A program made the translations under genes and the position numbers. A DNA stretch of 64,000 bases, taken from the NCBI GenBank assembly GCA_019448385.1, contig JAGTXO010000013.1, positions 496,001 through 560,000 on the forward strand, in the 5' to 3' direction. This DNA is from Diacronema lutheri. Lineage: Eukaryota > Haptophyta > Pavlovophyceae > Pavlovales > Pavlovaceae. The notes under the pieces were generated by a model. It saw nothing but the letters and a program-made list of their open reading frames with translations, had not been told where the DNA came from and did no database searches. Of this stretch, positions 19,031 through 37,945 are shown one piece after another (positions within the stretch are counted from its first letter, which is position 1; every line of letters begins with the position of its first letter).

Positions 19031-22000
19031 TCAACGCCGGCCGCGCTTCGGCCCGCGCGCGCTGCCGCCGCCGGCACTGGCGCTGGCAGCTCCGCGGGCG
19101 GGGGTGCGGGCGCGAGCGCCGCCGCCGCCACCGCCGCCGCGCCCGCCGCCGTCGTCGCCACCGCCGTCGCCGCCGCCGCCTCCCCCGCCGTCATCGTCGT
19201 CGTCGCCGCCGCCGCCTCCGTCGCCGTCGCCGTCGCCGTCGCCCTCGCCGCCGCCGCCGTCGCCGCTGGCGTCGTCGTCGTCGTCGTCGTCGCCCTCGTC
19301 GTCGCCCTCGTCGCCGCCGTCGCCCTCGTCGTCGCAGTCGTCGCCCTCGCCGTGCACCATGCGCTCCTCACGCTCCCACACCTCGCCGCGCGCCCACCAG
19401 GCGAGCACGAGGGCAAAGCGCTCAGGCGTCGACGTGGTGTCGCGCCCGGCCGCGCGCGCCGCAATGTCGTGCACGTCGTAGAAGATGTTGCGCGCGGCGT
19501 TGTAGTCGCGGTGCACGGGCTTCTTGCCGCCGTTGCACGCCGGGCAGATGACGAGCGCGTGCACCGTGCGCGTGCCGCCCTTTGCCACGGGCAGGCGCGG
19601 GTTCTGCGCGAGCTCCGCGCCGCAGCGCTGCAGCCTGCCGCCCTTGGCGAGCCGCGGCATCGAGCAGTGCATCGACGTGTACGGCTCGGGTACGAAGACG
19701 GCCGCGACGCCGCGCCGCCGCAGCTCGCGCAGCAGCCCCACCTGGAAGGCGGGCGGCGCGCCCTTGGGCTGCGCGCCCTTGTGGTCGTGCAGCCACTTGC
19801 CCACGCACACGAGCAGCCGGTCGCGCGTCACGCCGTCGACGCAGTGCGCCGCGATGAGCGCCTCGGCGACGCGCGCCGCGTTGGACCGCCCGCCGCTGTC
19901 GCGCCGCCAGCGCTCCTTGCGGCGCGCCGGCGCGTCGTACACGTGCTCGGCGGCGCGCTCGCGCACCCGCGCGCTCTCGCGGTGGAAGGCGATGTATTTG
20001 CCCGCGTCGAGCACCTTGGCGCTGTGCGCCTCGCCAAGCCGCGCCTCGTCCGCCTCCACGCTGAACTCCTCGCCGCGCCCGTCGGTGCGCACGCGCCGCC
20101 GCGCCGCGTTGGTCTTGGCCGTCTCGCGCGCAAAGCCCGCGGCGCGCGCGCGCGCGCGCTGCGTGAACTGCCGCCAGACGGCCGCCCGCCCGACGTGCGC
20201 AGAGTAGGTGGTGATGTTGCCCATGTTCGGGTCGGCCGCGACGACGACCGCCTCCTCGATGTCGATCGCCCGCCGCAGCTCGGAGCCGAGCGCGACGGCG
20301 ATGCGCCCGTCCGGCCGGCGCCAGCGGTGCAGGACGCTCGAGCTGCCGGCCGGCGCCTGCGCCTTCGGCACGAGGACGGTCGCGACGGCGTGCACGGCGA
20401 CGCCATCCGTCACCACCGACGTGACGGGCTGCCGGCCCGGGAGCGGCACGCGCGGCAGCGGCGCGAGGCCCACCCACGAGCGCCGCGCGTGCCACGGCAG
20501 ATCGGCCGGCGGCCGCTCGCGCCCGGCGTAGTCGAAGACGCGGTTGGAGATGTCGAAGCGCGTCGCGAAGACCGCGTACCTGACGCGCACGTCGGACATT
20601 GGCGGGACAAACGAGCCGCCTTGAGCGGTCCACTTGATCGGCTCGCCATCGTGGTCGCGCAGGTCCAGCGCCTTGAGCCGCGCGCGCAGCTCCTTGCGCT
20701 CGTCGTCCGGGAGCGTCTCCCAGATGGCGTTCGCGGTGAGGCGCACGTTGCGCGGCACCTGCGCGCAGCGCGCGGCGCGCGAGCGCGCGGGCGCGTGACC
20801 AACCTGGCCGCGGGGCGGCGCGCACGGCGGCGGCGCGCGCGCTTGGGCGCTCGGCGGCGGTAGCGGCAGCCGCGCCTCGCGCGCACATTGTGCGTGCGCA
20901 GCGGCGCCACGTTATACCGCGGCGGCCGGTCGGTGAGCTGCGTGTACAGGCGCGCGAGCCGGCAGAGCAGCGCCTGCCCCTTGGCCACGTGCTGCAGGTT
21001 GCGGATCTGCACGAGGAAGTAGCGCGTCGTGTGCCGGTCGTAGTTCCACCTTTTCGTGGGCGCGCACTCGTAGTTGATCTTGTGGAGGACCATGTCGGGC
21101 AGGTGGCGGTCGAGCGCGGCGGGGCAGCCGACGCGCGCGCCCTCCACGTCGCCGCGCAGCAGCCGCTCGCACAGCTCGCGCACGCGCGCGTTTCGCTGCA
21201 TCTCGGGCAGCGCGACGAGCGCCTCGTCGCGCTCGACTGCCGCGCGGACGACGTCGCGGAGCAGCCCGTTCACGACGCGCGATGGGTGCATCAGGCACGC
21301 GGTGGACACCTGCGTCGCCTCCTCCGCGAGGATCTTATCGAGGCCCACCGCGCAGACGGGCTGGACGCCGTCGGCCATCTCGCCGACGGCGCGCGCCGTC
21401 GCCGCCTTGGTCTGCGCGGCGGCTTGCTCGGCGGGCTTGCCTCGGGCCGCTGCACCGTACGTGCTCACGTCCTTGTGCCAGCCGATCGCCGAGAAGATCG
21501 CACGGACGGTTCCCTTGTCCATCGTGGTCGACGTGTGCACGCTTGTCGACGGGCCGCCCGACGCCGCGCCGACGGCCTGCGCGCTCGCCACCGCAGCCTC
21601 GTCGCGCACCACCTTGTTGATGACGCGGTACGCCTGTGTCGTGAGCCTGTGCACGGCCGCCGCGATGCGCCGCAGCTCCTTCCGCGCACCGGGCTGCGCC
21701 GTCACCGCCTGCGGCCCCGCGTTGAGCGTCGAGCGCTTGACCACGAAGCCCGGGAGCACGCTGCCGCGCGTGCGCGCCGTCGCGCCGCCGGCGGCGCGCG
21801 CGCTCGGCGCAGCGGGCTCGTCCACGCGCGCGCGCTCGACGCCGCGCGCGCGGGGAACGCTCGGCGCGCGCGCGCCCGCGGCGTCGCGCGCGCTCGCGGC
21901 AGCACCCGCCGCGGCGCGCTTGCCCGCGGCGCCCGACACGCCGTGCGCGCGAAGCGGCGCCGACGCCAATGCCGACGCCGCGCCCGCGCCGCCGCTGCCG
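19031..22000 (-). other. Fanzor (TnpB-like) nuclease module of the giant gene
   Basis: Residues from about 5290 to 6236. The segment YNVAPLRTHN joins across the intron to VPRNVRLTANAIW, matching the plr-sfvP-ir-id region that precedes the nuclease in Fanzors. RuvC-I Asp lies in AADPNMGNITT (about 20232). RuvC-II Glu lies in VFVPEPYTSMHCS (about 19691), and RuvC-III Asp in HRDYNAARNI (about 19505). Between them a zinc ribbon shows MHC, RCGAE and CPAC. All three acidic positions are present, so it could be active. Fanzors are known eukaryotic homologues of TnpB and RNA-guided DNA endonucleases. The C-terminal acidic tail and basic end are extra. The alternative is a separate gene starting downstream of the chromodomain. 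Confidence 0.85.
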
Positions 22001-37000: not shown

Positions 37001-37945
37001 CCTGGCCGCCGTCGACAGCGCGCGGCCTGCAGCGCCCGTGAGCGCGTCGAGCGCGGCCGTGCGTGCGATGCGGTCGTCGGGCGCGCGCAGCGCCGCCTCG
37101 ACGGCCTGCAGCAGCCCGTCGGGCGCGGATCCGCCGACACTGGCATCGCACGCCTCGGCGAGCCGCGCGGCCTCGGCGAGCCGCGCGGCCTCGCGGGTGA
37201 ACGGGCCGAAGCGCCTGGCGCGGTCGCCGAGCAGAGCGCCGATGGCGGCGCGGAGCGTGCGCGCGCGGGTCTCCTCGTACGCGGCCGTCGTGAGGCGCGC
37301 GAGGCGCGCGTCCAAAGCCTTCTTGATCTCGACAAGGACATTCGCGCGGCGGCCGTAGAGCGTCGATGCGCTCGCCGCGACCTCGGCCGCGACTGTTGCC
37401 GCGGCGAAGCAACACGCGGCCCCACTCTGCGGGGGCGCCTTGAAGGCATCGATGGGCGGCGCTGTTCTGCCGATGCGCTGCGCAAGCTTCTTGATGAGCA
37501 CGCCGGCCGCCGTGGCGTACGCCGATTCGCCGTTGCCCAAGGTGCGCGAATCGGCGAGCAGGGCGAGCGCGGCGCCGGGCGGCGCGCCGCGCTGCGCGGG
37601 CGGCGCGAGGAGCAGGCACGCCGCCGTCCAGTGCGCGAGGCCGCTGGACGCGCGGAGGCAGAACGGTAGCACGACCACGAGCACCTGCCCAAACCGGTCC
37701 GCATCCGCGCATGCTTTGCCCAGGTTGCGCAGCGCCACCTTGAGCGCATGCTGCGAGCACCCCGTGTCGCCCACCCTAACCCTGCTCGTGCCGAAATCCG
37801 CGTAACGCAGCAGGGCGATGAGGCAAGTGGATGGGACCACGTGGGGGTGGGTATCTCCCGGCGACAGAATGGTGCTGAGGGCCAGCGAGAAACTGTCCGA
37901 GCCGCCCCGCCCGCCGGGCAAAGCGTCCTTCACGGAGTCCTCCAT
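19031..37945 (-). CDS. Giant multidomain protein: C48-like proteases, YqaJ nuclease, chromodomain, Fanzor
   Basis: I join three exons: 37945-34268, 34191-20887 and 20758-19031. Introns are 76 bp (GTAGGC donor, CG-repeat filled) and 128 bp (GTGCGC donor), both phase 0. The product is about 6,236 aa. Order: an Ulp1-like protease signature at residues 105-178; a transmembrane-like helix near 1100 (IVATVALGGAVFAG); an Ala-rich region; a second, better Ulp1-like triad near 2526-2595; about 37 alanines; a YqaJ-type nuclease near 4000-4160; a USP-like tail near 4410-4460; a chromodomain near 5220-5280; Fanzor to the C-terminus with an acidic Gly/Asp tail ending GPKRGRR. The 13.3-kb exon has no stop. 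This looks like the core gene of a large mobile or virus-derived element. It may be a polyprotein, or several genes I cannot separate. Confidence 0.65.
22030..22210 (-). other. Chromodomain within the giant gene
   Basis: The segment TYEVEAVVDERR followed by FRIRWRGYDESADTWEP and a terminal helix is a textbook chromodomain, including the aromatic cage residues Y, W and Y. Chromodomains bind methylated histone tails, and in retroelements they steer integration to heterochromatin. Here it lies immediately N-terminal to the Fanzor module. Confidence 0.9.
24480..24640 (-). other. USP-like C-terminal segment in the giant gene
   Basis: DDDFVAVVRRGGRWFACEP, RRLQWRSVL and AFAVVYVRRGD reproduce the order of the ubiquitin-specific-protease His-box, its DD strand and the final YxxxYxR strand. 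The catalytic His is replaced by Phe, so it is probably inactive. This is suggestive only. Confidence 0.45.
25395..25870 (-). other. YqaJ/lambda-exonuclease-type nuclease domain in the giant gene
   Basis: The motifs run WHDERWEEVTGSKVGDVV, then FSPDGLAIL, then VLVEVKTLTKAD, then RDQLQLGMHVLGVRKALYVQYL. This is the D...ExK...Q arrangement of the PD-(D/E)XK alkaline exonuclease/YqaJ family. That family, common in DNA viruses and phages, processes DNA ends for recombination. All metal-binding residues appear intact. Confidence 0.85.
29578..29686. repeat. (GGC)36 microsatellite coding polyalanine
   Basis: About 36 uninterrupted GGC triplets on the plus strand encode roughly 37 alanines in the minus-strand giant gene, next to a polyproline run. 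Confidence 0.95.
30080..30300 (-). other. Ulp1/C48-like cysteine protease domain in the giant gene
   Basis: GHFTALRLVRV, VLVDTLAS and NEAAQRGATCGLAIVG place His, Asp, Gln and Cys in the order and spacing of Ulp1/SENP-type peptidases. This family removes SUMO/ubiquitin-like modifiers or processes viral polyproteins. It is the best-preserved of several such segments in the protein. Confidence 0.65.
30760..31060 (-). repeat. Tandem 20-residue Ala/Pro repeat in the giant gene
   Basis: Four to six degenerate copies of a unit like SAFAPAADGVFPAPLVA lie just upstream of the second protease-like domain. They are probably a flexible linker. Confidence 0.8.
34235..34262. repeat. (CG)n tract in intron 1 of the giant gene
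   Basis: A nearly pure alternating CG run occupies much of the 76-bp intron (34267-34192). It could form Z-DNA. Confidence 0.8.
37410..37640 (-). other. N-terminal Ulp1/C48-like protease signature in the giant gene
   Basis: H105-W106-T in LAHWTAACLLL, D132 in LLADSRTL and Q173-to-C178 in PPQSGAACCFAAA reproduce the His-Asp-Gln-Cys series of C48 peptidases within the first 180 residues. Confidence 0.55.

Follow-up and report, generated by a model that had tools for sequence, protein, structure and literature searches.

A high-copy 29-kb mobile element of the alga Diacronema lutheri with a giant Fanzor-containing reading frame and a Helitron-type helicase

Fanzors have already been described in Helitron-type elements, and giant polyproteins have been described in mobile elements (PMC3627910, PMC6431247, in the parts cited here); the biological role of Fanzors is given as unknown in the part of the SpuFz1 study that we draw on (PMC10432273). 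Among the systems most similar to the one reported here, CRe-1, 2 and 3 of Chlamydomonas are Fanzor1-bearing Helitron2 elements, likewise algal, with Helitron kinship and many copies, and are described as carrying a Fanzor alone and having verified Helitron ends (PMC3627910). Helitrons and Helentrons have the same kind of helicase, and Helentrons have cysteine-protease-like and nuclease accessory domains (PMC4067079). TnpB in IS200/IS605 and IS607 shares the layout, with the nuclease gene close to one edge, space for a guide derived from the flank, and a short motif at the opposite edge (PMC10432273), and Burro, a giant Gypsy element of planarians, encodes a 4,873-aa polyprotein with ubiquitin-pathway domains (PMC6431247). 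Here we describe a 29.2-kb mobile element of the haptophyte alga Diacronema lutheri, found in a 64,000-nucleotide stretch of contig JAGTXO010000013.1 (the window, within which all positions are counted), that combines a giant Fanzor-containing reading frame with a Helitron-type helicase (Table 1).

What is unusual about this element is its make-up. Unlike CRe-1, 2 and 3, it is 21–29 kb long, with its own helicase and a giant polyprotein, and no Helitron2-type ends were found. Unlike in Helitrons and Helentrons, no Rep or apurinic (AP) endonuclease was recognised, and a RecE-type exonuclease and a Fanzor are present instead. It also differs from TnpB elements in its far larger size, in having no recognised TnpA or serine recombinase, and in that its guide and target-adjacent motif (TAM) are putative. 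Burro is a long terminal repeat (LTR) retroelement, whereas in the element here no reverse transcriptase was recognised and the polyprotein terminates in a Fanzor. Its exonuclease matches the nuclease core of the RecE-like/lambda exonuclease family, but is embedded with a chromodomain and a Fanzor in one giant frame. We found no paper pairing a Fanzor with YqaJ in the literature covered, outside which lie most subscription papers and Repbase, and no comparable element appeared in the titles and abstract openings of the papers listed for combinations of Fanzor, haptophyte, polyprotein and chromodomain.

A preliminary description of this DNA had suggested that the frame belongs to a mobile element and proposed searching the genome for further copies with shared boundaries. 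Consistent with this, we found that the frame lies in a sharply bounded repeat with common ends at 18624 and 47828. On the left, 39 other copies start at window positions 18607–18625 (best 40 scored); on the right, most full matches stop at 47825–47837 (37 scored). At least 94 Fanzor-exon matches were listed, including the window, with 95–100% protein identity, and none of these 94 contains an internal stop. Of 420 candidates, 94 were scored, and the list favours good copies: L007, with a frameshift in exon 3, is absent from it. At 21–29 kb each, the copies would amount to about 2.0–2.7 Mb of the 43.5-Mb genome. The sections consulted of the D. lutheri genome paper report 22.9% repeats, with LTR elements and long interspersed nuclear elements as the main annotated kinds, and neither 'transpos' nor 'Fanzor' occurs in its main text (PMC8379373). 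The preliminary description had also limited the system to 19031–37945; the frame does lie there, but the element extends well beyond it and includes the helicase.

Pairing of the ends revealed two size classes, of approximately 29.2 and 21.5 kb. In the shorter form (L098, L095; G000:C82:1369200-1382600), about 2.3 kb of different sequence replaces window 30759–40949. The 21.5-kb copy on C82 retains the left end and the Fanzor, matches window 23433–30758 at 96.8%, and matches window 40950 onward at approximately 90% in the stretch read. Its frame spans at least 3,185 codons reaching the shared core, with an N-terminal part that is different yet open, and in both size forms examined the exonuclease, chromodomain and Fanzor are on one frame. 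The 2.3-kb replacement contains transmembrane-like and repetitive segments. Separately, a Fanzor-exon copy with only 94% identity to the window (L097, G000:C71:454100-454700), absent from the 94 listed matches, shares its contig with a left end approximately 29 kb away.

The giant reading frame is real and coding. As the preliminary description had proposed, three minus-strand exons form one frame with a spliced length of approximately 6,200 residues, and they fall in open reading frames at 33923–37963(−) (1,346 aa), 20410–34263(−) (4,617 aa) and 19031–20911(−) (626 aa). The long stop-free exon, also noted at that stage, exceeds anything seen in 100 dinucleotide shuffles of 19031–37963, in which the longest frame in any of the six frames averaged 869 codons and reached at most 1,759, compared with the 4,617 stop-free codons observed. 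The GC content is 75–83% and the same DNA is also open over 1,757 codons in antisense, so GC-rich DNA by itself yields long frames. Codon-position GC gives a minus-strand coding signature over much of 19.2–37.8 kb, in three successive frames that switch near 20.8 and 34.2 kb, matching the intron model; the signal is flat across low-complexity stretches. Exonuclease, chromodomain and the N-terminal part of the Fanzor all lie within the uninterrupted exon 2. The splice of intron 2 joins ...RYNVAPLRTHN to VPRNVRL..., and the same join of RTHN to VPRN is present in the D. lutheri NCBI protein KFE25_006464 (P0015). Six GT-AG pairs preserve the frame at intron 1; 34267..34135 is one of them, a plausible position but less certain than that of intron 2. 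The frame is also read in two fragments from databases, P0017 (425 aa at 99.8%, from the EukProt set for Pavlova lutheri) and P0018 (ENA; 98.5% over 200 aa). A search for relatives of the whole megaprotein covered 1,271 candidates with 0.55–1.75 times the query length and found none at E ≤ 0.001. KFE25_006464 itself is a SAM-domain protein in which the Fanzor fragment, with the intron 2 join retained, makes up the first ~100 aa, reflecting either exon capture or a gene-model fusion.

Judged by its sequence, the C-terminal module of the frame is a divergent Fanzor, because only three of the 7,994 candidates scored against it reached E ≤ 0.001 and it matched none of the solved Fanzors. The C terminus matches TNB (PF07282) at 2e-6, with 28.3 bits against a cut-off of 26.3, as do all three sequences compared; the NCBIfam TnpB model scored just 14.5 bits against the Fanzor exon (cut-off 100). 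The Fanzor/TnpB motif as published, D-X(125,275)-[TS][TS]-XX-[C4 zinc finger]-X(5,50)-RD (PMC3627910), fits D176 and T361 S362 (184 residues apart), C365/C379/C405/C408 and R417 D418. The RuvC residues D176, E358 and D418 and the four cysteines are invariant in the three aligned sequences, the relatives being P0013 (94%) and P0014 (46–50%; read from a short contig in a different data set). The first RuvC aspartate is part of a D-x-N, similar to the D383/N385 pair reported for SpuFz1 (PMC10432273); P0014 does not have that N. Structure models were of low confidence (pLDDT 42.7 for the Fanzor exon and 44.8 for one putative protease domain).

The preliminary description had placed a YqaJ-type nuclease and a chromodomain on the same frame as the Fanzor, and both were recovered there. 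The exonuclease slice matches the RecE-like exonuclease family PHROG_434 at 5.6e-18 over the nuclease core (slice residues 63–254) and TIGR03033 at 1.7e-7, the latter under its curated cut-off. The chromodomain matches PF00385 at 7.6e-11 (42.2 bits; cut-off 25.1) and the CDYL chromodomain 2dnt at 3.9e-9. A Pfam scan of the frame in slices, also proposed earlier, bore out YqaJ weakly (PF09588, 4.7e-4 for the slice and 0.018 for the whole exon, both under the curated cut-off) but not the Ulp1-like protease signatures that had been read from the sequence: across ten slices, including both with H..D..Q..C-like motifs seen by eye, no Ulp1/Peptidase_C48 match was found at E ≤ 10. In exon 1, the C48-like motif is visible by eye only, and no support for an Ulp1-type protease came from Pfam, PHROGs, NCBIfam, the sequences in PDB or one structure model. 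We therefore rejected this identity, and in the absence of a profile match for these signatures the self-processing suggested for the polyprotein is unsupported.

Stop-containing copies, which would have indicated that the central region is not translated, were hardly seen. In a sample of copies that omits the window's own, the exon 1 stretch 37945–34503 and the C-terminal part of exon 2 (23499–20887) are open in seven of seven, and exon 3 is open in six of seven, the exception being L007, which has a frameshift and a stop. A diverged 29-kb copy, C84, is open through exons 2 and 3; one change in its exon 3 was counted as a stop, although the copy translates without any. Between the window and C84, indels within the three exons preserve the reading frame in net terms (multiples of three), whereas eight of the eight at 38.4–40.9 kb are not, and omega is 0.97 for exon 1, 1.08 for exon 2 and 0.61 for exon 3. 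Comparison with the 21.5-kb copy gave 136 substitutions (34, 46 and 56 at codon positions 1, 2 and 3), 114 of which fall in a single 1.2-kb slice, with an omega of 0.70 in frame; shifting the frame gave 1.08 and 1.38. In frame, this copy has none of 2.3 expected stops, and the shifted frames have none and two of 3.5 each; its deletions total 51 nt, within a repeat of uncertain alignment. Given the absence of stops, the frame-keeping indels and the omega values, the frame is kept open, and over so short a time the constraint on amino acids is weak to moderate.

The helicase at the far end provides the best lead to the kinship of the element, which on this comparison points to Helitrons. With its pieces joined, the best solved relative is Helraiser, a bat Helitron transposase, at 1.5e-43 and spanning both helicase halves; human PIF1 scored 6.6e-9, and human and bacterial PIF1 proteins as a group reached 6.6e-9 or weaker. 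The first helicase exon alone matched only Helraiser at E ≤ 0.001. Domain scans covered the exon frames at 19–38 kb and all six frames at 37.9–47.8 kb, and in these frames there was no Pfam match to an integrase or tyrosine recombinase, no reverse transcriptase and no PolB.

TATAG is present at both edges of the element. End counts come from 20 copies with both ends placed, in 19 of which the right edge is readable; beyond the exact right ends, two have one mismatch and three are different. There are no clear inverted repeats at the ends, and no target duplication beyond TATAG was seen by eye. In the orientation of the Fanzor, CTATA stands at the 5′ edge and the Fanzor stop lies 407 bp before the 3′ edge. 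By analogy, this layout would provide what a TnpB-type system needs, a motif at one edge and a flank-derived guide at the other. The TAM reported for SpuFz1 is 5′-CATA (PMC10432273), to which CTATA is similar, and CTATA may have that role here. The terminal 200 nt of the candidate scaffold fold modestly better than shuffled sequence (z −2.1; 5 of 200 shuffles equally good), and the whole 407 nt give a z of −1.25 (13 of 100).

We give about an even chance to the reading that this is a young, high-copy giant DNA element of Helitron kinship, with a helicase and a Fanzor polyprotein, that spreads by copying in an RNA-guided manner. In the mechanism we propose, the Helitron-type helicase would unwind donor DNA, and RNA reading through the element edge would pick up a guide from flanking DNA, as suggested by the Fanzor gene ending 407 bp from that edge. 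The Fanzor would then cut the matching element-free site beside CTATA, a motif retained at the opposite edge, the RecE-type exonuclease would resect the break, and homologous copying would restore or spread the element, with the chromodomain perhaps tethering the complex to chromatin. In its strictest form, which we consider improbable, there would be no classical transposase at all: the polyprotein would unite an RNA-guided cutter with a resecting exonuclease, and the helicase would drive copying into the cut, giving CTATA-adjacent homing. A recent, abundant element in a cultured alga allows a direct test of whether Fanzors serve copy-by-repair transposition, and it would provide an example, in a eukaryote, of an RNA-guided nuclease linked to a recombination nuclease of phage type.

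Several results weigh against the favoured reading. No Rep/HUH Pfam match was found at E ≤ 1 in the frames scanned, although a divergent Rep is possible, and the ends do not match the Helitron TC...CTRR. We do not file the element as a Helitron, because two defining features were not found. Neither Helitron2-type inverted repeats (matched by 45 of 150 shuffles) nor end hairpins (z −1.8 to 0.9) exceed chance. When the joined flanks of eight copies were searched, no empty site was found, as no match spanned both sides. Among solved proteins, the Fanzor came closest to Cas12f1 (0.46, improving to 0.016 when a profile was used). In addition, omega is near 1 for exons 1 and 2 in the comparison with C84, and one shifted frame of the 21.5-kb copy likewise gained no stops. 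The partial matches in the empty-site search came from a small repeat that begins with TATACTAACGACGC and adjoins copies 43 and 44. Members of a small repeat family (L083–L094, starting TATACTAACGACGCTTACAGG) adjoin the right end of copies 43 and 44 and of one more on C34, and also occur 40 bp ahead of a left end on C71, reflecting either a shared target preference or nesting.

What we treat as one polyprotein may instead be at least two separate genes (exon 1, exon 2 and the Fanzor), an option we regard as somewhat unlikely. Intron 1 is not unique and the 21.5-kb copy examined has other sequence in place of exon 1 and the beginning of exon 2, as separate genes would allow, but the exon 2/exon 3 join recurs in KFE25_006464, and exonuclease, chromodomain and the Fanzor N-terminal part share one uninterrupted exon. 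It is also possible, if rather unlikely, that the element is a Rep-less Helitron moved in trans by the Rep of another element, with the polyprotein as cargo or a host-manipulation factor that has no role in transposition. A Helitron-type helicase with no Rep in the frames scanned would fit, as would the precedent of the Fanzor-bearing CRe elements of Chlamydomonas, described as non-autonomous Helitron2 (PMC3627910); the intactness of nearly all sampled frames in many copies and the failure to find Helitron2-like ends argue otherwise.

A Crypton-like tyrosine-recombinase element, in which a circle inserts at the 5-bp core TATAG and the Fanzor, exonuclease and helicase are accessory, would account for TATAG at both edges with no further duplication or inverted repeat, but we think it unlikely, no Pfam integrase having been found in the frames scanned. 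Exonucleases, protease-like motifs and Fanzors also occur in giant viruses, and the exonuclease here is of phage and virus type. However, a remnant of an integrated virus is very unlikely: the frames scanned contain no polymerase or capsid domain, neither the Fanzor nor the exonuclease slice has a relative in the viral contigs scanned, and the unit is uniform and high-copy with fixed ends. The chance that the frame is an accident of very GC-rich DNA is close to negligible; the base composition and the antisense frame would favour it, but a length far above the shuffle maximum, the codon-position signal and the recognised domains rule it out for the whole exon.

Table 1. Features of the element in window coordinates
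Feature	Position	Strand	Remarks
Whole mobile element, 29.2 kb	18624..47828	.	Shared copy edges
Left terminal GTATAG	18624..18629	+	GTATAG in 19/20 copies, GTGTAG in 1/20
Candidate guide-RNA scaffold (putative), Fanzor stop to element end	18624..19030	-	407 bp
Exon 3	19031..20758	-	Fanzor RuvC and zinc ribbon, acidic/Gly tail, stop
Intron 2	20759..20886	-	GT-AG, 128 nt
Exon 2	20887..34134	-	~4,416 aa
Chromodomain	22042..22194	-	aa 4024-4074 of exon 2 frame
RecE/lambda-exonuclease (YqaJ) slice	25024..26076	-	PHROG_434, TIGR03033, PF09588
Putative intron 1	34135..34267	-	133 nt, phase 0
Exon 1	34268..37945	-	~1,226 aa counted from first Met
Frame with weak ubiquitin-specific-protease-like C-terminal match (tentative)	41334..42236	-	USP12 0.0021
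Helitron-type SF1/PIF1-like helicase, several exons	43950..45527 (approximate limits)	-	PF05970, Helraiser match
Plus-strand frame	46243..46791	+	Partial codon-position signal
Right terminal TATATAG	47822..47828	+	14/19 readable ends exact

Other features were noted within and beside the element. The ubiquitin-specific-protease-like frame has an omega of 1.19, indicating no constraint, and no Pfam match; with so weak a match, we rejected that identity. The plus-strand frame has no notable match in PDB, PHROGs or NCBIfam. An HUH-like pattern match at 40251(+) was judged to be chance, as the surrounding stretch shows no coding signal. Long C and G tracts (39853–39887, 40291–40338 and 40901–40927) vary in length between copies, in a region with no coding signature. 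Two imperfect palindromes match their own reverse complement, one at 43494–43919 (~426 bp, 68%) and one at 45644–45963 (~320 bp, 75%), the latter between the helicase and the plus-strand frame. Just beyond the element, a 36-bp tandem repeat occupies 15148–15391, with 6.8 copies and 95% matches.

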